Assembly: GCF_013409505.1 (NCBI RefSeq)
Contig: NZ_JACCBN010000001.1
Span: forward strand, 1,240,001 to 1,304,000
Direction: 5' to 3'
DNA: 64,000 nucleotides
Origin: Actinomycetospora corticicola
Lineage (GTDB): Bacteria; Actinomycetota; Actinomycetes; Mycobacteriales; Pseudonocardiaceae
In this document: positions 8,090-55,285 of the stretch, piece after piece
Layout: each line of letters begins with the position of its first letter
Position numbering within the stretch: the first letter of the stretch is position 1
Translations under genes and position numbers: made by a program
Notes under the pieces: model-generated
The model's database searches: none
Told to the model about the DNA's origin: nothing
The model's input: only the letters and a program-made list of their open reading frames with translations

Positions 8090-9247
8090 GTGACCCTCCT
8101 GGCCCTCGCACGGGCGGCGCTCGGGATCGTCGGCGTGCTCGGCACCGTGGCCCTCGCGGTGATCGTGCTCGGCACCTTCCTGCCGCGGGTGCCGGTGATC
8201 GGGTTCCTGGGGTCGTTCGTGTCCGGGCAGTACCCCCTGCACGCGGCACTCGGGGCCCTCGTCGGGCTCGCGGCCGGGGTCGGGCTGCTCGCCCTCGGGG
8301 TCCCGCGCCTCGGCGGGGTGGTGACGACGGTGGGTGCGCTCGCCGTGGTCGGCACCCTCGTCGCGCTCGGGACGCAGGCCGCGGCGGCCCGGGCCGCCGG
8401 GGTGCGGGTGGACTGGGGTCTGGCCCTCACGGCGGTCGACCAGCGGGGCGCCCCGCCGGACCTCGTCGTGGAGTACCAGCCCGGGCTGGAGCTGGCCGTG
8501 CACCTGCCCTCGGGGCCGGGGCCGCACCCGGTGCTGGTGTGGGTGCACGGCGGCAGCTGGGTCCGCGGGACCACGGCGGACCGCGCGCGGGCCAACCGCT
8601 GGTACGCCGACCGGGGGCTCGCCGTGGTGGCGGTGCAGTACCGGCTGCCCGGCGACCCGCCGCTGCCCGGCGCGACCCTCGGCGAGGCGCAGCGCCACGA
8701 CGTCGCCTGCGCGCTCGCGTGGGTCGGCGGACCGGGGGCCGCCCACGGGCTCGACGCGGGCGCGGTGGTCCTCGGGGGCCAGTCCGCCGGGGCGACGCTG
8801 GCGCTCTCGACGACGGCGGCGCTGGTCGGCGTGCCCCGGGCGTCGTTGCCCGCGGGGTGCCCGGCGCCGGCGCCGCGCGCGACCGTCGCGTTCTACCCCG
8901 TCGTCGACATGACGCAGATCGCGCTCGGGCTGCAGGACGCGGTGTTCGGCGGTCCCACCTCCGCGCACCCGGCCCTGACCCGCGCCGCCTCGCCGGGCGA
9001 CCTCGTCGATCCCCGCCTGCCCCCGACGCTGCTGGTGCTCGGGAAAGCCGACAACTTCATCCGGGCCGACCTCGTCCGCGACCTCGACGCCGAGCTCCGC
9101 GCCGCGGGCGTGCCGGGCCGACTGGTCCAGGTGCCCTATGCCGATCACGTCTTCGATCACCCGTACGGCTCACCGGGCGCACAGATCGCCCGGCCCGCCG
9201 TCCTCGCGTTCGTCCGGGAGCGGATCTCGGACCCGTCCGGCCGCTGA
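8090..9247 (+). CDS. Membrane-anchored alpha/beta hydrolase (carboxylesterase type)
   Basis: 385 residues. Three hydrophobic helices occupy about residues 1-105, then an alpha/beta-hydrolase domain: the oxyanion motif HGGSW at about residue 150, nucleophile elbow GGQSAGA near 227, a probable acid in the LVLGKAD region, and His in YADHVFDH near the C-terminus. This order fits the BD-FAE/HSL esterases. The extracytoplasmic or cytoplasmic side of the domain is not determined. The start GTG 8090 puts the first membrane helix directly at the N-terminus; it follows the glycosyltransferase by 40 bp and may share its transcript. Confidence 0.8.
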   Translation: MTLLALARAALGIVGVLGTVALAVIVLGTFLPRVPVIGFLGSFVSGQYPLHAALGALVGLAAGVGLLALGVPRLGGVVTTVGALAVVGTLVALGTQAAAARAAGVRVDWGLALTAVDQRGAPPDLVVEYQPGLELAVHLPSGPGPHPVLVWVHGGSWVRGTTADRARANRWYADRGLAVVAVQYRLPGDPPLPGATLGEAQRHDVACALAWVGGPGAAHGLDAGAVVLGGQSAGATLALSTTAALVGVPRASLPAGCPAPAPRATVAFYPVVDMTQIALGLQDAVFGGPTSAHPALTRAASPGDLVDPRLPPTLLVLGKADNFIRADLVRDLDAELRAAGVPGRLVQVPYADHVFDHPYGSPGAQIARPAVLAFVRERISDPSGR

Positions 9248-9270
9248 CGACGGGCCCCGCGTCGCGTTGC

Positions 9271-10074
9271 ATGGTCGACGTGACGGAGCGTGGAGCGGAC
9301 ATCCACCGGGTGTTCCACGACGTGGAGCGGGCCGCGTCGGCCGGCCCCGCCGTGGAGTTCCTCCGGGCGGTCGAGGCGGCGCCGTCGGTGCTGGCCTACC
9401 GCACCCGGCTCGAGGAACACCTCGCCCCGGTCGCGGGGGAGACCGTGCTCGACGTCGGGTGCGGCGCCGGGCACCACGCGGCCGCGATCGCGGCGGCGCG
9501 GGCGGCGGCGGACGCGCCCGGACCCGTCGTCGGGATGGACCGACCGCGGATGCTCGAGGAGGCGGCGGACCGGTACGGGGACGCGGTGCGGTGGCTGCCC
9601 GGGGCGGCCGAGGCGATGCCGCTCGAGGACGACAGCGTCGACGCCGTCTACGCCGAGCGGGTGCTGATGTACGTGGACGACGCGGTGGACGTGGTCGCCG
9701 AGATGGCCCGGGTCCGCCGCCCCGGCGGGCGGGTGGCGCTGTTCGAGCTGGACTACGCGTCGATGGTGCTCGGCGGGGACCCGAAGACGGCCGACGAGGT
9801 GCTCGGGGTGGTGTGCGGGACGGTGGCCTGCGACCGGATGGGCCGCGCGCTCGGACGGCTGCTCACCGACGCGGGCGTGCTGGTCGTTGAGCAGGCGCCG
9901 TTCGCCATGCCGATCCCGCCGCCGGTGTGGGCCTCGGCGGTGCGCGCGCCGGTCGAGGAGGCGGTCGCCGACGGGCGGCTCGACGCCGGCCGCGTGGCCG
10001 CGTGGTTCGACGCGGTCGAGGCCCCCGGCGCCTACCCGGGGTCGGTGACGGGGGTCCTGGCCTGCGGGCGGTGA
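9271..10074 (+). CDS. SAM-dependent methyltransferase, class I
   Basis: 267 residues. Motif I, VLDVGCGAGHHA, occurs near residue 60, an acidic ribose-binding residue in VVGMDRPRML follows, and the post-motif segment DSVDAVYAERVLMYV leads to RPGGRVALFELDY. This is the Methyltransf_11/25 fold of small-molecule methyltransferases. The substrate cannot be inferred. ATG 9271 lies 23 bp after the hydrolase stop, so the two may be cotranscribed. A copy of the CCCGTCGTCGGG motif at 9523 encodes PVVG inside the cofactor-binding domain. Confidence 0.82.
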   Translation: MVDVTERGADIHRVFHDVERAASAGPAVEFLRAVEAAPSVLAYRTRLEEHLAPVAGETVLDVGCGAGHHAAAIAAARAAADAPGPVVGMDRPRMLEEAADRYGDAVRWLPGAAEAMPLEDDSVDAVYAERVLMYVDDAVDVVAEMARVRRPGGRVALFELDYASMVLGGDPKTADEVLGVVCGTVACDRMGRALGRLLTDAGVLVVEQAPFAMPIPPPVWASAVRAPVEEAVADGRLDAGRVAAWFDAVEAPGAYPGSVTGVLACGR

Positions 10075-10104
10075 TCGTCCTGGCGTGACTGGGACGATGA
10101 TCGG

Positions 10105-11106
10105 GTGCGCCGATCCCTGCCCGCCGTGCTCGGCGCCCTCGTGGGCCTCGTGGTCGCCCTCGCGGTGCTCCTCCCCGGCTACGTCGGGCTGGACCGCGTC
10201 ACCCCGTTCGTCCAGCTCGCCGCCCTGACCCCGCTGCTGCTCGTGGTGGTGATGGTCTCGGCGTTCGTCGGCCGGTTCGCCGGGGTGCTCGTCCGGCGGA
10301 AGGGACCGCCGCTCGACGAGCGCCGACCCCGTCTGTTCGCGGCCGGGTTCGCGGCGATGGTCGCGGCCGCCCTGGTGGCGCTGACCGCCGCGGGCATCGT
10401 CGGGAGCCGGCTGCTCGCCGACGACGCTCCCGTCGGGTCCCGCGGCCCCACCGTGCTCACCGTGAACACCGACCGGGGCCGCGCCGACGTCGACGCCCTG
10501 GCCGCGCTGGTACGCGAACGGGCCGCCGACGTCGTGGTCCTGCCGGAGGCCGGGAACCTGTTCCGGGCGCGACTCACCGCCCTGCTGCCCGACTACCGCG
10601 GATGGACCGCGGACGCCTCCTCGCCCGACGACGTCGCCTCGACGTCCCTGCTGCTCGGCCCGCGGGTGCCGGCCCCGCAGATCCGGTCGGTCCCCGGGCG
10701 GCTCTTCGGCACGCTCGACGCCACGGTCTCCGGGGTGCGGGTCGTCGCCGTCCACGTGGCGGCGCCCTATCCGCCCAGCCAGGTCGGCCTCTGGCGCGAC
10801 GACCTGGCGCGGCTCGTCGCGCCCGCGTGCGGGACGCCGCCGGCCGGCCCGACGATCGTCGTCGGCGACCTCAACGCCACCGCCGACCACAGCGTCCTCC
10901 GGGCCGCGACGGCCGGCTGCACCGATGCCCTGCCGGCCGCGGGGTCGGGCACGGTGGCGACCTGGCCGACCGCCCTCCCACGGTGGTTCGGCCTCCAGGT
11001 CGACCACGTGCTCGTCGGGGGCGGGCTGGGCGTCGCCGACGCGGAGGTGCTCGACGTCCCCGGCACCGACCACCGGGCGGTGCTGGCCCGGCTCGTGGTG
11101 GGCTGA
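10105..11106 (+). CDS. Endonuclease/exonuclease/phosphatase-family membrane protein
   Basis: 333 residues. Three N-terminal hydrophobic helices (about residues 5-110) precede an EEP domain: VLTVNTDRGR, the metal-ligand strand VVVLPEAG, VVGDLNAT with the Asp-x-Asn pair, QVDHVLVG, and terminal TDHRAVLA with the catalytic Asp-His. Such proteins are predicted metal-dependent phosphodiesterases or phosphatases facing the outside. The start is GTG 10105, 30 bp after the methyltransferase, in the same direction. Confidence 0.82.
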   Translation: MRRSLPAVLGALVGLVVALAVLLPGYVGLDRVTPFVQLAALTPLLLVVVMVSAFVGRFAGVLVRRKGPPLDERRPRLFAAGFAAMVAAALVALTAAGIVGSRLLADDAPVGSRGPTVLTVNTDRGRADVDALAALVRERAADVVVLPEAGNLFRARLTALLPDYRGWTADASSPDDVASTSLLLGPRVPAPQIRSVPGRLFGTLDATVSGVRVVAVHVAAPYPPSQVGLWRDDLARLVAPACGTPPAGPTIVVGDLNATADHSVLRAATAGCTDALPAAGSGTVATWPTALPRWFGLQVDHVLVGGGLGVADAEVLDVPGTDHRAVLARLVVG

Positions 11107-47786: not shown

Positions 47787-47982
47787 CGGTCGAGTCTGCC
47801 TGCGCGCGACGCACACACTCGCGACACCGGATGAAGAGTGCGGGTCACTCCTGCGCGGGATACACACGGACCGACTGGCTCGCGCCGGATATCCGTGATC
47901 GACGTGGCCGGGTTCGAAGCGAGAGCGAACGTGGCAGCGGTGCCAGGTCGGTGGACCCGCCACCGAGTCCGCACTAGGCAGT

Positions 47983-48014
47983 CATGCCGCGATAACGGGG
48001 CATATCACGGCATG
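47983..48014. promoter_or_regulatory. Inverted repeat over the start of the truncated cupin gene
   Basis: CATGCCGCGAT and ATCACGGCATG are 11-bp arms with one mismatch and a 10-nt spacer. The right arm covers the ATG of the short cupin gene at 48012, consistent with an operator or a remnant recombination site. Confidence 0.45.
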
Positions 48015-48317
48015 AAGGGCATTCGCACGGCTCGAAGATCAACGAGCGGTCCAGCCTCCGTCGACGGGGGACTGGGCCAGCTCCTGGTCTGCACCGAGGG
48101 CTTCGGGTTCGTCGGCACCCGCGACGGCACCGCGATCCGGTTGCGCGCGGGCGAGTCGGTGTGGACCCCGCCGGGCGAGGAGCACTGGCACGACGCCACC
48201 GAGGGCACGATGATGTGCCACCACGCGCTGCTCGAGGTCCCCGACGACGGGACCGAGGCCACCACCTGGCTGGAGCCGGTCACCGACGAGCAGTACGAAC
48301 AGGCTCAACCCGCCTAG
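48012..48317 (+). pseudogene. Truncated cupin-domain protein (N-terminal half missing)
   Basis: 101 residues. From residue 16 the sequence reads VDGGLGQLLVCTEGFGFVGTRDGTAIRLRAGESVWTPPGEEHWHDAT, the second half of a cupin barrel (PPGEEHWH, metal-ligand type). The first half with its usual HxH motif is absent; upstream bases do not encode it in any frame I checked. Either a broken gene or a mini-cupin. The CCCGACGACGGG motif at 48240 encodes PDDG. Confidence 0.6.
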
Positions 48318-48429: not shown

Positions 48430-48927
48430 TCAGGCCAGGCCGCGGGCGTCGTAGGTGACCTCAGGCCAGGGGCGGCGCATCCGCTCGAGCCCACGGGCGA
48501 CCCACCCGGTGATCGTGTCCGCCTCCTCGGACAGGCCAGCGGCGTCCGCATGCACCTGCGGGTCGAGCTCGACGCCGCGCAACAAGATCTCCGGGGCGTG
48601 GAGCCGGGCCTCGACCCAGGCCACGGGGTCGACCGTGAGGTCGGCATCGGTGCTGCGGGCGCCCGGTTCACCGTCGACCATCCCGGGGTGCCAGTGCATC
48701 CGATCGGCGGCGCCAGGTCGGCTCTCGAGCAGGTCGATCCGGCAGAACGCCGGCGCCAGGTCCCAGCGGAGCGAGGCATAGATGCTGCCCGCGTGGACCT
48801 GTCGCATTTCCCGGAGTTCGACCCGCACGCCTCGCTCCCGGACGTATGGGCCGGACTCTGCGGGGTCGTGGAAGTCGACGAGTTCGGCGGTGACCGCCAA
48901 TCGCCCGACAGTCCACATCGTGGCCAC
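48430..48927 (-). CDS. Unknown protein, third gene of the tmpAB-like operon
   Basis: 165 residues, mostly soluble, no recognised domain. Notable pieces are YASLRWDLAPAFCRIDLLESRPG, RMHWHPGMVDGEP and TGWVARGLERM. His-x-His in MHWHPGM could bind a metal. GTG 48927 (or ATG 48918) starts 12 bp after the tmpB-like stop, same strand, so it is probably cotranscribed with it. It could modify or recognise the same substrate; this is inference from position only. Confidence 0.6.
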   Translation of the reverse strand: MATMWTVGRLAVTAELVDFHDPAESGPYVRERGVRVELREMRQVHAGSIYASLRWDLAPAFCRIDLLESRPGAADRMHWHPGMVDGEPGARSTDADLTVDPVAWVEARLHAPEILLRGVELDPQVHADAAGLSEEADTITGWVARGLERMRRPWPEVTYDARGLA

Positions 48928-48938
48928 GGCGTCCGACC

Positions 48939-49541
48939 TCAGCTCAGGTCCGGGGCGCGGACGCGGTCCGGGGCGAACACGCGGCGCACCATCGGCTCGA
49001 AGAACTCCAGCGGCTCGATGTCGTAGTCGGGGTCGAACGAGTTCTGGTCGTAGTTCGCGCAGAAGTCGACGCAGTCCTGATACCAGGGGTGGTCGGCGTA
49101 CCGGTCGCGGGCGTTCGGGTCGGCGCCGACGTGGTGGAACCAGTAGACGCCCTGGAACACCCCGTGGTGGCGCATGATCCAGTAGTTGCGTTCCGAGACG
49201 TAGGGGCGCACGACGGCGGCGGCGACCTCGGAGTGGTTCGCGGGGGCGAGCATGTCGCCGACGTCGTGGACCAGGGCGCAGATCACGGTCTGCTCGTCCT
49301 CCCCGGCGCGGTGCGCGCGGGTGGCGGCCTGCAGGCTGTGCTGCAGGCGGGTCACCTGGTAGCCGGTGTGGTCGTCCATGGCCCGCAGCCAGCCCAAGAC
49401 GCGGTCGGGGAATCGGGCCAGCTCAGCGTGCTCGTAGGGCTCGAGCAGGGCGTAGTCGGCGGCGGTGCCGTCGGCCATGGCGGTGAACCCGACGGTGGGT
49501 CCGGCCGCGGTGTTCGCGGCGGTCGGTCGGGTCGCGGTCAT
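48939..49541 (-). CDS. tmpB: HD-domain mixed-valent diiron oxygenase, TmpB/PhnZ-like
   Basis: 200 residues. The first metal His is in RLQHSLQ (68), the HD pair in ALVHDVGD (92-93), further His at 103 and in MRHHGVF (125-126), and Asp in FCANYDQNSFD; this matches TmpB and PhnZ. TmpB cleaves (R)-1-hydroxy-2-(trimethylammonio)ethylphosphonate to glycine betaine and phosphate. ATG 49541 overlaps the stop of the dioxygenase gene (ATGA), a strong sign of a paired pathway. The substrate assignment rests on the partner enzyme and homology; PhnZ itself acts on 1-hydroxy-2-aminoethylphosphonate. Confidence 0.72.
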   Translation of the reverse strand: MTATRPTAANTAAGPTVGFTAMADGTAADYALLEPYEHAELARFPDRVLGWLRAMDDHTGYQVTRLQHSLQAATRAHRAGEDEQTVICALVHDVGDMLAPANHSEVAAAVVRPYVSERNYWIMRHHGVFQGVYWFHHVGADPNARDRYADHPWYQDCVDFCANYDQNSFDPDYDIEPLEFFEPMVRRVFAPDRVRAPDLS

Positions 49542-50755
49542 CGGGTCTCCTGCGGTTGGGCGGGCAGCGGCTGGTGCTCGCCGCGCAGGACCCGGCGGCG
49601 GGCGGTGAAGTCGTCGAACTCCATGTAGACGTCCTGGAGGTGGCGGGCGCCGCTGGCGGGGTCGTAGGGCATCCGGCCGTGCAGCACGCGGTGGGAGTGC
49701 ACGGTGAGCAGGTCCCCGTCCGAGGACTTGAAGGTGGCGCGGTAGCGGCCGGAGTCGATGATGCGGGCGAGGTGGCGGTAGGCGGCGTAGAACACCTCGA
49801 CCTCCTCGAAGGGCGCGGCAAGCGGCTGGGCGAGCTGGTTGGAGAACCGGAACAGTCGCACCTGCCCGTCGGTGTCGAGCTGGATCATGGGGTTCTCGGC
49901 CCAGGTGTCCTCGTCGTCGCTGAACAACTGGTAGGGCACCGGTACCCGGACCAGGGTGTCGAAGTGTTCGGGGGCGTCGCGGCGCAGCTCGGCCACTGCG
50001 GCCCAGCCGTCCACGAGTGTGGACTCGCCGCCGGTGGCCTGGTTGGTCAGGAAGTGCAGCAGCTGGATCGACGGCGGCCAGTTGTAGCTGGGCATGTCGG
50101 TGTGGGGCTTGAGCTCGCCCGGGGTGTGGGCGACGTTGTAGCCGGCGGGGTCGTGGCGCACGTTGTGGACCCGCTCGAAGGCCACCTCGCGGACGTGCCC
50201 GATGCGCTCGGCGAACCGCTCGACCTCGTGGTGCTCGCAGGGGACCCCGGTCACGATCGCGGCGCCGTGCTCGCGGACGGCGTCGAGGTAGGCCAGCTGT
50301 CCCTCGGCGCTGCCCAGCACCTCGTCGTGCGGGAATCGCGGCGGCTCGCCCGCGGCCGCCGACCACAGCGTGACCGGGGAGCGGCGGGCAGCCCGGGCGG
50401 CCGGGGAGTAGTCATAGCGACGCAGCCACGCCGGGGAGTAGGTCGCGGCCCGACCGTCGTTCCAGAGAATTTCCAGCCCGGCGTTCGGGTCGTAGGAGGC
50501 GCTGGTCGGGGCGATGCCGTCGGCGATGGAGGCGGTGAACAGCTTGCGTTCTCCGCTCTGGGCGACCCGGTCCTCGCCGGCCCAGCTGTTGTCGCGCAGC
50601 CAGACGTAATGGAACCGGCGAGCGCGGCCGTCGATCACGACGGCCAGGGCACGCGGCCCCAGGACGAGGGCGCCCTCGGGGCCGACGACGGAGCCCAGGT
50701 CGGTGTCCCGGTCGACGGTCGTGGGCTGGGGGGTGTCGTGGCCGACGAGGCTCAC
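49538..50755 (-). CDS. tmpA: Fe(II)/2-oxoglutarate dioxygenase, TmpA-like (gamma-butyrobetaine hydroxylase fold)
   Basis: 405 residues. An N-terminal GBBH-type domain (VIDGRARRFHYVWLRDN near 40-55) precedes a TauD-like domain with the iron triad HTD (H218, D220) and His359 in VLHGR with the 2-oxoglutarate Arg. TmpA hydroxylates 2-(trimethylammonio)ethylphosphonate at C1. In most relatives LRDN is followed by zinc-binding Cys residues; here it reads SWAGED, so that zinc site is missing. GTG 50755 chosen. Divergent from a LysR gene. Confidence 0.75.
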   Translation of the reverse strand: MSLVGHDTPQPTTVDRDTDLGSVVGPEGALVLGPRALAVVIDGRARRFHYVWLRDNSWAGEDRVAQSGERKLFTASIADGIAPTSASYDPNAGLEILWNDGRAATYSPAWLRRYDYSPAARAARRSPVTLWSAAAGEPPRFPHDEVLGSAEGQLAYLDAVREHGAAIVTGVPCEHHEVERFAERIGHVREVAFERVHNVRHDPAGYNVAHTPGELKPHTDMPSYNWPPSIQLLHFLTNQATGGESTLVDGWAAVAELRRDAPEHFDTLVRVPVPYQLFSDDEDTWAENPMIQLDTDGQVRLFRFSNQLAQPLAAPFEEVEVFYAAYRHLARIIDSGRYRATFKSSDGDLLTVHSHRVLHGRMPYDPASGARHLQDVYMEFDDFTARRRVLRGEHQPLPAQPQETR

Positions 50756-50827
50756 GGGCTCTCCTGACGAGTGGTGGTGCGGTCGAGTTCCACCGTCCCG
50801 TCCGAACGTCCCGGTATCAAACGAGCG

Positions 50828-50841
50828 CTCAGGCCCCTGAG
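50828..50841. promoter_or_regulatory. Palindrome in the tmpA/LysR intergenic region
   Basis: CTCAGG-CC-CCTGAG is a perfect 6-bp dyad in the 133-bp gap between the divergent tmpA-like and LysR genes, 47 bp from the LysR start. It is a plausible LysR binding site. Confidence 0.4.
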
Positions 50842-50888
50842 ACCGCAGAAAAGTAGGCCTCTCCGGGTTGCGTCGGTACGTTCGGCCG

Positions 50889-51800
50889 GTGCGTGTGCCG
50901 CTGCCGCCGTTGCCCGGGGTGCAGGCCTTCGAGGCGGCCGCTCGGCTCGGGAGCTTCGCCGCGGCGGCCGAGGAGCTGCACCTGTCCGCAGCGACGGTCA
51001 GCCAGCGCATCCGGTCCCTCGAGACCCACCTCGGGGTCCCGTTGTTCGAGCGGCATGCCCGCAGCGTGGAGCTGACCGAGCTCGGCCGGGCCTATCTGCC
51101 CGCGGTCCGGGAGAGCCTCGACGATCTCGCCGCTGCGACCGGCGGCCTGTTCGCCCCCGCCCGCCGAGAGCAGCTCACGGTGCGCACCCAGGTGTCCTAC
51201 GCGACCACCTGGCTCGCGCCGCACCTGCACCTGTTCCAGGCCGAGCACCCCGACATCGATCTCCGCGTGGTGTCCGCGGTCTGGTCCGAAGCACTGACCC
51301 TCGGCGAGGTCGACCTCGACATCCACCAGGGCCGCGGCGCCTGGCCGAACGCCCACGCCGAGCTCCTGCACCACGACAGTGCGGTCGTCGTGCACGGACC
51401 CGGACACCTCGACCGCTGGGGGCCGGTCACCGAGGTCGCCGACCTGTTCGCCCGACCGCGCATCCAGGTCCTCGGCTTCGACGACGTGTGGCAGCGCATG
51501 AGTCACGACGGCGGGCCCGTGGGTCCCGGCGGTCGCGCGGGACCCGCGATCACCGTCGACACCACCGTGACCGCCCTCGAACTCGCCGCCGGCGGGGACG
51601 CCAGCGCGGTCGTCCCGGAGCGCTTCGCCCGCACGGCCGTGCGGGCCGGCCGGGTGAGCCTCGCGCTCCCGCAGGCCTTTCCGATGCGTCAGGCCCACTA
51701 CCTGCTCCGGCCCCTCGAGGCCCCCCGTTCCTCGCCCCGCGCCCGCGTGTTCCTCGAGTGGCTCACCCACCTCGACGAGCACCAGCCCGCCCTCGGCTGA
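50889..51800 (+). CDS. LysR-family regulator, GcvA-like
   Basis: 303 residues. Helix-turn-helix LPPLPGVQAFEAAARLGSFAAAAEELHLSAATVSQRIRSLETHLGVPLFER is the GcvA/AmpR subtype. A ligand-binding domain follows. It probably senses the phosphonate or a product and controls the divergent tmpA/tmpB-like operon. GTG 50889 is preferred to TTG 50868. It ends close to a hairpin at 51947-51983. Confidence 0.9.
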   Translation: MRVPLPPLPGVQAFEAAARLGSFAAAAEELHLSAATVSQRIRSLETHLGVPLFERHARSVELTELGRAYLPAVRESLDDLAAATGGLFAPARREQLTVRTQVSYATTWLAPHLHLFQAEHPDIDLRVVSAVWSEALTLGEVDLDIHQGRGAWPNAHAELLHHDSAVVVHGPGHLDRWGPVTEVADLFARPRIQVLGFDDVWQRMSHDGGPVGPGGRAGPAITVDTTVTALELAAGGDASAVVPERFARTAVRAGRVSLALPQAFPMRQAHYLLRPLEAPRSSPRARVFLEWLTHLDEHQPALG

Positions 51801-51994: not shown

Positions 51995-52321
51995 CTACGA
52001 GGTGCTCCTGCCGGCTTGGACAGGACGGCCGGAGTCGATCCAGGCCCGGGTTCCGCCGGCCACGGAGACGGCCGGGATGCCCTGTCCGGTGAGGTACTCG
52101 ACGGCGCGGGCGCTGCGGTTCCCGGACTGGCACACCATCTGCAGCCCGTGGGCGTCGCGCAGCTCGGGGAGGTGGTCGGCGATCTGGGGCAGGGGGATGA
52201 GCCGGGCGCCGGGGATGTGTCCGGCGGCGTACTCGTCGGGGTCGCGGACGTCGATCAGGGTGGTCGTGTCGGTTCCGTGGGTGGTGGCGACGTCGTCGAC
52301 GGTGATCTCGGGGACGGTCAT
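51995..52321 (-). CDS. Single-domain rhodanese (sulfurtransferase)
   Basis: 108 residues. DVRDPDEYAAGHIPGARLIP is the conserved N-terminal rhodanese motif and VCQSGNRSA the active-site loop (catalytic Cys near 65). It transfers sulfane sulfur to thiol acceptors. Last gene of a minus-strand set with TauE/SafE and a rhodanese-DUF2892 protein, all probably regulated with sulfide stress. Confidence 0.9.
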   Translation of the reverse strand: MTVPEITVDDVATTHGTDTTTLIDVRDPDEYAAGHIPGARLIPLPQIADHLPELRDAHGLQMVCQSGNRSARAVEYLTGQGIPAVSVAGGTRAWIDSGRPVQAGRSTS

Positions 52322-52345
52322 GGCGAGTGTCCTTCGTGTGGTGGG

Positions 52346-53131
52346 TTAGGTGGCGAGGGCGGTGACGGCCTGGAAGGTGACACCGGCGGCGACGAGCAGG
52401 ACGAGTACGGCGAAGCCGCGTCGCAGCACGGCGGCGGGGATGCGTCGGGCGAGGCGCCCGGCGGGCAGTGAGACGGCGATGGCGGCGAGGGCGAAGACGG
52501 CGATGACCGGCCAGTTCATGGTGCCGGTGCCGTGCGCTGCCGCCAGGTAGGGCGTCAGGCCGGCGATCGAGTTGACGACGATGATCACCAGCGAGGTCGC
52601 GACGGCGTTCGGGGTACGCAGCCCGAGGGCGATGACGAGGGCGGGAACGAGCAGGAAGCCACCGCCGACGCCGAGCAGTCCGGTGAGGAACCCGACGGCG
52701 AGGCCGGTGAGGATCGCGCGGGGCAGGCAGCGTCGCCAGGCGACCCCGCCGCCCGGGAGGTCGCAGACGCCGCCGGTCTCGGTGGTGGAGCGCAGCATGC
52801 GGACCGCGGCGGCCACCATGATCGCGGCGAAGACCAGCAGGAGCACCTGTGGGTCGAGGTGGTGGTTGACGAGGCCGCCGAGCAGGGCGGTGGGGATGCC
52901 GGCGGCGCCGACGATCCCGGCGATGCGCCAGTTCACCTCGCGTCGGGCGCGGGGGGCGACGGCGACGGCCGAGGCGGATCCGACGACCACGAGGGAGGCG
53001 GGGACCGCGGCGGCCACGGGGAGTCCGAGGCCGTAGACCAGAGCGGGGACGGCGAGGATGCCGCCTCCGCCGCCGACGAGGCCGAGCAGGGCGCCGATGA
53101 CGGCGCCGAACAGGGCGGCGAGGGCGAGCAC
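52346..53131 (-). CDS. TauE/SafE-family sulfite/thiosulfate exporter
   Basis: 261 residues, eight hydrophobic helices. The repeated motif GAVIGALLGLVGGGGGILAVPALVYGLG and GFLTGLLGVGGGFLLVPALVIALGL is diagnostic. The family exports sulfite or thiosulfate or sulfonates. It lies between two rhodanese genes, fitting disposal of oxidised sulfur products. GTG 53131 is four bases before the preceding stop. Confidence 0.92.
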   Translation of the reverse strand: MLALAALFGAVIGALLGLVGGGGGILAVPALVYGLGLPVAAAVPASLVVVGSASAVAVAPRARREVNWRIAGIVGAAGIPTALLGGLVNHHLDPQVLLLVFAAIMVAAAVRMLRSTTETGGVCDLPGGGVAWRRCLPRAILTGLAVGFLTGLLGVGGGFLLVPALVIALGLRTPNAVATSLVIIVVNSIAGLTPYLAAAHGTGTMNWPVIAVFALAAIAVSLPAGRLARRIPAAVLRRGFAVLVLLVAAGVTFQAVTALAT

Positions 53132-53134
53132 GGC

Positions 53135-53731
53135 TCACGCGGCCCGGGTGCGTCGGGCGAGTCGGTCGAGGGTGTCCGTGGGCTCGGGGTCGGTGTGGTC
53201 GCGGTTCCAGGGCATCCGGGCCAGGGCTGCGCCCATGGCGCAGGTGTCGGTGAGGGCGGAGACGGTCAGGCCGGTGCCGATCGCGGCGGCGAGCAGCCGG
53301 GCTCGGGGGGAGACGAACCGGCCGGCGGCGAGTCCGGTGACCACGAGGCTCCCGGCGGTGAGGCGGACCTGGCGTTCGAGGGCCCAGGCGCGGCGGCCGC
53401 GGACGACGTCGCCGCCGGCCTGTTCGTAGGCGGCGACGCCGCCGTCGAGGACCTGGGCGTGCTCGAGGCCGACGGCGGCGAGGTGGCGGCGGCCCTGTTC
53501 GGCGCGCACGCCGGACTGGCAGACGAGCACGACGCGGTCGTCGTGGGCGAGGTGGTCGGCGAGCTCGCGGGTGTGTTCGCCGAGGGTCGGCAGGGGGACG
53601 TGGTAGGCGCCGCGGACGTGGACGGCGTCGAACTCGGCGGCGCTGCGGACGTCGATGACCAGCGGCGCGGCCTCCGACGTGGACTGCCAGGCGAGGAGTT
53701 GAGCGGCGGACACGGTGGACGGTGAGGTCAC
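53135..53731 (-). CDS. Rhodanese fused to DUF2892 membrane domain
   Basis: 198 residues. An N-terminal rhodanese (1-110) has VIDVRSAAEFDAVHVRGAYHVP and the active-site loop VCQSGVRAEQ; a C-terminal region of about 60 residues with hydrophobic helices (SLVVTGLAAGRF, LLAAAIGTGLTVSALTDTCAMG) matches the DUF2892 pattern, which is often fused to rhodanese in bacteria handling persulfide. A GTG starts at 53731. Confidence 0.88.
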   Translation of the reverse strand: MTSPSTVSAAQLLAWQSTSEAAPLVIDVRSAAEFDAVHVRGAYHVPLPTLGEHTRELADHLAHDDRVVLVCQSGVRAEQGRRHLAAVGLEHAQVLDGGVAAYEQAGGDVVRGRRAWALERQVRLTAGSLVVTGLAAGRFVSPRARLLAAAIGTGLTVSALTDTCAMGAALARMPWNRDHTDPEPTDTLDRLARRTRAA

Positions 53732-53773
53732 GGGTTTCTCCGGGGTCGGGGAGGCGGGGTCGGGGAGGTGGAG

Positions 53774-53810
53774 GGGGTGGCCCGGTGCAGGCGCGCGGCC
53801 GGGCCACCCC
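53774..53810 (-). terminator. GC-rich hairpin between CstB-like and rhodanese-DUF2892 genes
   Basis: GGGGTGGCCCGG and CCGGGCCACCCC form a 12-bp perfect stem with a 13-nt loop in the 147-bp gap after the CstB-like gene. Transcription may end here, making the three downstream genes partly independent. No other feature was seen in this gap. Confidence 0.6.
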
Positions 53811-53878
53811 GGGTGCGCGGTCCCGTCGGGGGAGGTCGGGACTGCGCCGTTCAGGTGGCGCTGCTCGGTCGGCGCTGC

Positions 53879-55285
53879 TCAGGCGGCGCGGCGGTCGTCG
53901 TCCCGGACGACGGCGAGCCCGGCCTGGGCGGCGTGGGGCCAGTCGTCGTTGACGACGACGAGGTCGCGGTGGCGTCCGGGCTGGGCGGCGAGCAGGGAGG
54001 CGGCGACCGAGGCGCGGTAGCCGGAGCCGCAGTAGATCCAGACCTCGCCGTCGGGAATCTCGTCGCGGCGGGCGAGGAGCTCGTGCAGCGGGAGGTGGAG
54101 CGAGCCGGCGACGCCGCCGCCGGCGCGCTCGTTCTCGGTGCGGGCGTCGACGACGACCACCCGGGCCGGGTCGCGGTCGGCCAGGCCGGCGAAGTCCGAG
54201 ACCCGGTAGGACGCCAGGTCGGTGCCGCCGGCGAGGTCGTCGATCGGGCCGGTCGTGGCGCCGGCGAGCCGGTCGATGCCGATGCGGACGAGTTCGCGGC
54301 GGGCGTCGGCGACCTGTTGCTCGGTCTCGCCGATCAGGGTGAGGTCGGCGTCGTCGGGCAGCAGCCAGCCGAGGTAGGTGACGAAGGGCTGGGCGAGCTG
54401 GAAGGACAGCGATCCGGCGAGGTGACCGCCGGCGAAGGCGGTGCGTTCGCGCAGGTCGACGACCCACTGGCCGGCCGCGAGGCCCTTCTCCAGTCGGCCA
54501 CGCAGCTCGTCGGGGGAGACCGGTTCGGGCAGCGACAGGTCGACCGGCTCCGGCCCGGCGGAGTTCGTGGGCGCCATGCGGGCGTAGTAGGCGGGGTAGG
54601 CGCCGAGCCCGGCGACCAGGGTGTCGACGAAGTCCTGTTCGTCGGAGGTGAGCGCGGGGTTGGTGCTGCGCTGCTCGCCGACGGTGGAGGCTTCGCCCGA
54701 GGGCGGGGTGGCCGAGCAGAAGCTGCCGAACCCGTGGGTGGGGAAGACGGTCGCGTCGGCGGGCAGCTCGTCGACCAGGCGTCGCACCGAGTGGTACTGG
54801 GCGTGGGTGAGCTCGACGGTGTCGTCGGGGGAGACCAGGTCGGTGCGCCCGGTGGTGCCGTAGAGCATCGAGCCGCCGGTGAACACCGCCTCCACCTGAC
54901 CGGACTCGTCGACCGTCGCGTCTGACAGCGCGTAGGACAGGTGGTGGTGGGTGTGGCCGGGGGTGGCGATCGGGCGCAGTCGCATGCTGCCGATCGCGAT
55001 GTCGTGTCCCTCGCGGGCGGGGGTGCGGTCGAAGGCGACGTGGTCGCGGGCGTCGACGAGGTAGACGGCGTCGAGGCGGCGGGCGAGTTCGAGGCCGCCG
55101 GTGACGTAGTCGTTGTGGATGTGGGTCTCGGCGACGTGGGTGATGCGCACGCCGAGTTCGTCGGCCAGGGCGAGGACCCGGTCGATGTCGCGCTGCGGGT
55201 CGATCACGAGGGCGACCTCGCCGTCGTGGGCGAGGTAGCTGCGGTCGCCGAGGCTGGAGGTGGCGATCGTGCGGACGTCGATCAT
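53879..55285 (-). CDS. cstB: Persulfide dioxygenase-rhodanese fusion (CstB-like)
   Basis: 468 residues. The metallo-beta-lactamase domain (1-250) carries HIHNDYVTGG and GHTHHHLSY, the persulfide dioxygenase pattern. A first rhodanese domain (about 255-350) reads LTLIGETEQ at the Cys position, so it is inactive; the second (360-468) has WIYCGSGYRAS with a catalytic Cys. The same three-part layout is known for CstB, which converts low-molecular persulfides to thiosulfate. Preceded by a palindrome (55293-55307) suited to CsoR/CstR binding. Confidence 0.9.
   Translation of the reverse strand: MIDVRTIATSSLGDRSYLAHDGEVALVIDPQRDIDRVLALADELGVRITHVAETHIHNDYVTGGLELARRLDAVYLVDARDHVAFDRTPAREGHDIAIGSMRLRPIATPGHTHHHLSYALSDATVDESGQVEAVFTGGSMLYGTTGRTDLVSPDDTVELTHAQYHSVRRLVDELPADATVFPTHGFGSFCSATPPSGEASTVGEQRSTNPALTSDEQDFVDTLVAGLGAYPAYYARMAPTNSAGPEPVDLSLPEPVSPDELRGRLEKGLAAGQWVVDLRERTAFAGGHLAGSLSFQLAQPFVTYLGWLLPDDADLTLIGETEQQVADARRELVRIGIDRLAGATTGPIDDLAGGTDLASYRVSDFAGLADRDPARVVVVDARTENERAGGGVAGSLHLPLHELLARRDEIPDGEVWIYCGSGYRASVAASLLAAQPGRHRDLVVVNDDWPHAAQAGLAVVRDDDRRAA

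Follow-up and report, generated by a model that had tools for sequence, protein, structure and literature searches.

Does a 2-oxoglutarate (2OG)/Fe(II) dioxygenase gene that runs directly into a gene for an HD-domain protein indicate breakdown of a phosphonate, as in the TmpA/TmpB system by which Leisingera caerulea degrades 2-(trimethylammonio)ethylphosphonate, or may such a pair serve a substrate of another kind? The question is raised by a locus of Actinomycetospora corticicola, which we analyzed within a stretch of 64,000 nucleotides (contig NZ_JACCBN010000001.1, positions 1,240,001 to 1,304,000; "the window", whose own numbering is used below). The order of transcription on the minus strand is dioxygenase, HD protein and an open reading frame (ORF) of 165 codons, and a gene for a LysR-type regulator diverges from them (Table 1). 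An earlier note on this DNA had described the locus as a TmpA/TmpB-like phosphonate pair with a cotranscribed third gene. With moderate confidence, we favor a different explanation: a LysR-controlled two-enzyme oxidation module that would hydroxylate, and then cleave, a non-phosphonate carboxylate, the third gene being incidental.

Conservation of the dioxygenase-HD pair

Pairs of the window type (P0001-type) were collected from 12 loci, comprising the window, four loci of the same genus, one of another genus of the family, and six of other families of the phylum. The four-base overlap between the two genes, correctly reported by the earlier note, is kept in all 12 pairs (window counted), and since these pairs span several families of the phylum, the arrangement is not a product of chance. 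The divergent LysR gene that had been reported next to the pair was also found (Table 1), and a divergent LysR match adjoins nine of the 12 pair loci; among the remaining three, the contig of L087 ends at this point, and none is visible in L116 and L117. An intergenic block, which is a candidate promoter or operator for both the LysR gene and the pair, could be recognized by eye, with some changes, in eight of nine aligned divergent regions, the exception being L088. The overlap, the adjacent regulator and the intergenic block are therefore strong evidence that the two putative oxygenases form one functional unit, usually together with the LysR gene. The LysR protein itself scores above the Pfam cut-offs with HTH_1 (77.3 bits) and LysR_substrate (79.3 bits), and its top NCBIfam model is GcvA, at 208 bits (below the cut-off of 288).

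Catalytic and recognition residues of the dioxygenase

The dioxygenase exceeds the Pfam cut-offs for both PF02668 (142.3 bits) and PF06155 (34.4 bits), and is thus of the GBBH type; gamma-butyrobetaine dioxygenase (BBOX) has the same combination of a TauD domain and a GBBH-like N-terminal domain. TmpA provides both its best NCBIfam model (NF049936) and its best solved match (1.4e-51), but the model score of 276.3 bits stays far below the equivalog cut-off of 400, and the BBOX model TIGR02409 gives 259.2 bits with a cut-off of 414.75. By alignment, the dioxygenase keeps the Fe(II) facial triad (H218, D220 and H359) as well as R371, which we take to be the 2OG-binding arginine, and TmpA shares all of these. 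Together with the gene overlap, the kept catalytic residues support the earlier view of a 2OG dioxygenase coupled to a protein of the HD diiron-oxygenase type.

The residues that would recognize the substrate tell a different story. We placed the aromatic cage at the columns of human BBOX positions 177, 181 and 194, presumably equivalent to the cage residues of psBBOX, and found F193, H197 and H210 there in the window dioxygenase, that is, one aromatic residue of three, where TmpA has Y/F/Y. In psBBOX the cage is formed by Phe184, Phe188 and Tyr201 and binds trimethylammonium (available text of PMC4736438). The F/H/H combination recurs in 11 of 11 aligned window-type dioxygenases, a set that counts the window, includes L054 (in which the first two zinc columns are gaps) and is without L116 and L117. 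According to the available text of PMC9296572, TmpA binds its phosphonate via N187, N287 and R288, and BBOX binds the acid group of its substrate via two asparagines. Both asparagines are kept in the window (N207 and N306), as in BBOX, but the arginine is replaced by Q307; across the 11 sequences the asparagines are found in 10 and 11, respectively, and glutamine occupies the arginine column in all. L054 (G002:C18:26001-46000, positions 9778-10904) is a second dioxygenase copy in its genome, matched in two frames, and its locus contains no HD match.

The earlier note had also remarked on a missing zinc cysteine in the N-terminal domain, and the loss proved to be complete: the columns of all four ligands (in BBOX presumably C38, C40, C43 and H82) hold S57, A59, D62 and R102. 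None of the four survives in the window or in L048-L052, its five close relatives, but L085-L088 and the natural fusion L053 described below have them all, and the site was therefore probably lost as a whole within the window-type group. Absence of the cysteines is not odd in itself, since the Leisingera TmpA is also without them in the aligned stretch. A homologous group in which one branch is without any of the four ligands represents a small natural experiment on the purpose of the N-terminal zinc site.

The HD protein and its solved relatives

The HD protein scores 26.6 bits with the general HD family PF01966 (gathering score 22). It falls short of the MIOX family PF05153 (15.1 bits, gathering score 25), and of the TmpB model NF049941 (32.1 bits, cut-off 300) and the PhnZ model TIGR03276 (35.7 bits, cut-off 214.6), which it matches over residues 54-105 only. 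Its putative metal ligands H68, H92, D93, H103, H126 and D165 form the H...HD...H...H...D pattern, at the ligand positions of PhnZ and TmpB, and are invariant in 40 aligned family members. These 40 were drawn from 78 HD sequences, with the clade carrying HDxGK and the fusion L053 among those omitted; one HD alignment is without L048, L052, L095, L110 and L081, and another sequence set without L118, L095 and L110 (stops). In a wider alignment of 39 rows, four of the ligand columns show no variation and another is kept in 38 rows.

In PhnZ and TmpB, the glutamate of a YxxE loop meets the substrate amine and its tyrosine covers the second iron (available text of PMC8177086). The window protein has HTGY at this lid, and at the glutamate position the 40 members have tyrosine (30), phenylalanine (9) or cysteine (1); glutamate appears in two rows of the wider alignment, L053 and L082. 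Two further stretches, AAKR and QGGPM, are common to L053 and the solved chains of PhnZ and TmpB and may bind the phosphonate; none of the 40 members has either. When the 40-member profile was compared with solved chains, only PhnZ (3.5e-12) and TmpB (1.3e-9) were significant; all other matches had E values of 0.42 or more, among them a dGTPase-like protein (0.64). A structure predicted for the HD protein from its single sequence had a pLDDT of 42 and plays no part in these comparisons. PhnZ, of the PhnY/PhnZ pathway for 2-aminoethylphosphonate, is therefore the closest solved relative of the family, but has HDxGH and YxxE where the family has HDxGD and xxG[YF]. MIOX, an HD oxygenase that cleaves a C-C bond, has the same ligand pattern and, like the window protein, no YxxE lid (PMC8177086, available text), but no MIOX chain is among the PDB matches of the profile at E<=1.

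As a control we used L053 (G036:C4:193001-213000, positions 9099-10646, plus strand), a protein of about 515 residues in which TmpA and TmpB are naturally fused. This protein passes the TmpA cut-off (405.3 bits, cut-off 400), misses both the phosphonate HD model (213.2 bits, cut-off 214.6) and TmpB (195.1 bits, cut-off 300), and keeps the phosphonate arginine, YxxE, AAKR, QGGPM and the zinc cysteines. The earlier label of a TmpA/TmpB-like phosphonate pair thus describes a likeness, in that the tandem and its catalytic residues are kept, but not membership among the betaine-phosphonate enzymes, because the window pair lies far below both equivalog cut-offs and the recognition residues are replaced, including those that the fusion keeps. 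As the elements for recognizing the trimethylammonium and phosphonate groups have been lost, phosphonates and quaternary ammonium compounds are both improbable substrates. The combination of a 2OG dioxygenase and an HD protein is therefore unsafe as a phosphonate annotation unless the cage, the arginine and the YxxE lid are checked.

Possible reactions and substrates of the pair

In the genome of A. corticicola (one contig, 99% completeness) neither PhnJ nor TIGR01098, which we take to be the PhnD-type binding protein, has a match, and no phosphonate family was found among 20 neighbor proteins scanned from eight pair loci. Neighbor families are shared only by L085 and L087, which belong to one genus; both have luciferase-like and FAD-oxidase-type genes, with an Fe-S CCG protein in addition in L087 and an aldehyde dehydrogenase in L085, and all of these genes are on the downstream side of the pair and on the opposite strand. 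From their Pfam domains, the FAD-oxidase and Fe-S genes might be read as being of the glycolate-oxidase type. Genes for EamA/DMT transporters lie near L051, L117, L113-L115 and L105.

From gene order, the conserved coupling, the catalytic residues, the replaced recognition residues and the family distances, we infer a reaction in two steps, presumably under control of the LysR protein. The dioxygenase would act on a small substrate with a carboxylate group, hydroxylating it at an unactivated carbon, and the translationally coupled HD diiron oxygenase would then break the bond adjacent to the added hydroxyl with O2, in a four-electron reaction of the MIOX/PhnZ/TmpB type. The two kept asparagines suggest a carboxylate at one end of the substrate, and the two histidines in the former cage suggest an opposite end that is polar or anionic; our guess would be that a C-C rather than a C-P bond is cleaved. 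In place of "TmpAB plus unknown", the locus would then be annotated as a coupled oxygenase pair, probably with a non-phosphonate substrate, within a broad, uncharacterized HD oxygenase-like family.

In a tree of 78 HD rows, in which the TmpB-like row is on a very long branch, the window protein falls within a supported set of 22 rows (98/97) that contains all 12 window-type pairs, one other 2OG pair and nine rows without a dioxygenase label. These nine, and the 48 of 78 rows in the whole tree without a partner label, weigh against the proposed module, as the HD protein may also act without a dioxygenase. Further points weigh in the same direction: both enzyme activities are predictions, and the HD alignment to PhnZ and TmpB covers the N-terminal half only. 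One missing arginine is compatible with a phosphonate bound in another way, PhnD is not the sole importer, and the convergent glycolate-oxidase-type genes near two homologues are a poor guide to the product of the pair. Moreover, the loss of the lid glutamate is family-wide, and would argue against TmpB membership but not against an ammonium substrate, since L106, a relative among choline genes whose dioxygenase keeps an F/F/Y cage, is also without it; the case against an ammonium substrate therefore rests on the dioxygenase cage.

It is conceivable that the pair is a diverged phosphonate system, in which hydroxylation alpha to phosphorus would allow the HD protein to free phosphate from a phosphonate without an ammonium group. 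The closeness of the dioxygenase to TmpA in both model and solved match, the standing of PhnZ and TmpB as nearest solved HD relatives, and the fact that every 2OG-plus-HD tandem described in the available text of two reviews (PMC10574752, PMC8177086) cleaves a C-P bond are consistent with this. We nevertheless consider it unlikely, given the glutamine at the arginine column in every window-type dioxygenase, the absence of AAKR and QGGPM throughout the 40 HD members, the HD score of 32 of 300 bits, and the lack of PhnJ and PhnD-type matches in the genome and of phosphonate families among the scanned neighbors. Alternatively, the HD protein could be a hydrolase, such as a phosphatase, coupled to the dioxygenase for regulation only. 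Most known HD proteins are phosphohydrolases (available text of PMC8177086), which also counts against our preferred module; one relative is annotated as a phosphohydrolase, and a sister clade adjoins LytB, at three loci with a glycosyltransferase, and not hydroxylases. The family profile, with E values of 1e-12 to 1e-9 for the oxygenases PhnZ and TmpB as against 0.64 for a dGTPase-like protein, and the four-base coupling to the 2OG gene in every pair argue for an oxygenase and make the hydrolase quite improbable.

The third gene

The product of the third ORF, which the earlier note placed in no known family, indeed matches none of the Pfam or NCBIfam models at E<=1, and no PDB chain matches it by sequence with an E value below 0.77. 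Its gene lies just 3' of the HD gene, as had been stated, but the gap from the HD stop to its start is 11 bases rather than 12; translation might also plausibly begin at an in-frame ATG at 48918. The common strand and this short gap would fit a single operon serving a shared pathway, in which the 165-residue protein would be an accessory or third enzyme, and H78 and H80 of its conserved ADRMHxHP motif could bind a metal. The proposed partnership did not survive the co-occurrence check: the third gene adjoins the pair in one of the 12 pair loci, the window itself, and judged by these neighborhoods it is therefore an incidental bystander, outside the conserved unit. Its relatives were found at 16 loci among named records, isolates and metagenome-assembled genomes, 15 of them 45-54% identical and one 77% identical over 30 residues only, and none has a dioxygenase, HD or LysR match in its flanks (6 kb per side where the contig allowed, less in some). 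Among 220 genomes of the family, 10 contain the third gene (E<=1e-20), six a close pair (dioxygenase E<1e-200, HD E<1e-100) and two contain both, side by side in the window genome but on separate contigs in the other (G522). These distributions make a functional three-gene operon very improbable. In another genome (G006), a distant paralogue of the third protein, 34% identical, is encoded about 5 kb from the pair.

The family of the third protein has an invariant RxDxLES...ADRMHxHP core. An AlphaFold2 model built from 16 sequences (mean predicted local distance difference test score, pLDDT, 88.4) comprises five strands and a long C-terminal helix; Foldseek gave no match to it in the PDB at E<=0.001, and the best Z in VIA-align was 5.2, to unrelated proteins. 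Because a DUF402 enzyme takes part in the biosynthesis of phosphonates, a relationship of the third protein to DUF402 was considered; it was dropped, as the chain concerned, at Z 3.8, was level with noise.

A wider HD family with varied gene partners

Of 247 genomes sampled from one class of the phylum, 96 encode relatives of the HD protein at E<=1e-25 (a count that includes the HDxGK clade and in which the ligands are confirmed for aligned members only). Relatives also occur on 15 proteobacterial plasmid records, and none turned up in one scan of viral contigs. MIOX, PhnZ and TmpB are named as the only HD oxygenases in the available text of a 2020 review (PMC8177086). We found no publication recognizable as concerning this family, although literature coverage was thin for subscription journals and this is hence no proof of absence.

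Partner labels on the HD tree were assigned by hand, and that of L103 as LytB was confirmed. Most rows are without any hydroxylase or xanthine-dehydrogenase-like partner; elsewhere, the immediate partners are other 2OG dioxygenases (L106, L125, L131 and L132), PhyH (L130), cytochrome P450 (L091 and L126), fatty-acid hydroxylases (L108 and L097) and xanthine-dehydrogenase-like proteins (L093 and L098). The P450 genes are directly upstream of the HD gene (L091, 5483-7674; L126, 1559-3532), and a gene for a beta-keto acid cleavage enzyme follows the pair in L131. Leaving aside the window-type loci, hydroxylases account for nine of 59 immediate same-strand neighbors of HD genes (TauD 3, P450 3, fatty-acid hydroxylase 2, PhyH 1), as compared to three of 117 genes at a distance of at least three positions within those loci (TauD 2, P450 1; Fisher p 0.003), where the background is a lower bound because its TauD count comes from the top 25 families listed. 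The 59 remain from 70 neighbors after removal of eight from window-type loci and three under 100 amino acids (aa), and the L132 dioxygenase, missed by the gene caller, is outside the nine. This enrichment is suggestive, the loci not being independent (L091 and L126 are from one genus) and the P450 of L127 being an over-extended ORF that overlaps the HD gene.

The partner variety would fit hydroxylation followed by cleavage of a range of substrates; in L106 these might be betaines, and in the window a different compound. Tentatively, we suggest that this large, uncharacterized family (HDxGD, with xxG[YF] for YxxE) might be an interchangeable "cutter" that works with unrelated hydroxylases (GBBH-type 2OG dioxygenases, PhyH, P450, fatty-acid hydroxylases and perhaps the xanthine-dehydrogenase type) and cleaves the C-C bond beside the new hydroxyl, the window pair being the 2OG version for a non-ammonium carboxylate; we regard this as possible though doubtful. 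If true, the mixed-valent diiron chemistry of HD proteins would reach well past inositol and phosphonates, and if the HD relatives are oxygenases, they would represent a new set of C-X cleavage reactions.

Two groups of relatives have distinctive surroundings. In L106, on plasmid pF045_1 (1088-10820), a 2OG-HD pair is found with a divergent LysR gene and a CoA transferase gene, and genes for a choline-binding protein, choline dehydrogenase and aldehyde dehydrogenase come after the pair, possibly a cluster for oxidative cleavage of the betaine/carnitine type. The HDxGK sister clade (L101, L102, L103, L104 and L079) lies beside a LytB/IspH gene, accompanied in L101, L102 and L104 by a family 2 glycosyltransferase, and probably has another function.

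Gene layout and flanking genes

Table 1. Features of the locus in window coordinates (feature, position, strand, remarks)
2OG/Fe(II) dioxygenase, GBBH/TmpA type	49538..50755	-	405 aa; TauD domain and GBBH-like N-terminal domain
HD-domain protein, diiron-oxygenase type	48939..49541	-	200 aa; HDVGD motif; no YxxE lid
ATGA stop/start overlap of the dioxygenase and HD genes	49538..49541	-	four bases; couples both genes
Third ORF, orphan	48430..48927	-	165 codons, 165 aa; stand-alone family, lineage-specific neighbor
LysR-type regulator gene	50868..51800	+	divergent from the dioxygenase-HD pair
Conserved intergenic block, ATCAAACGA ... CCCCTGAGACC	50816..50844	.	candidate promoter/operator common to the LysR gene and the pair

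Convergent to the third gene is a cupin-like ORF (47838-48317, plus strand), which matches the (R)-mandelonitrile lyase model at 86 bits (cut-off 140). On the other side of the locus, at 51995-55285 on the minus strand, translations read by eye indicate a cluster of a rhodanese, a membrane exporter, a second rhodanese and a metallo-beta-lactamase-rhodanese protein, which probably serves sulfur or persulfide handling.

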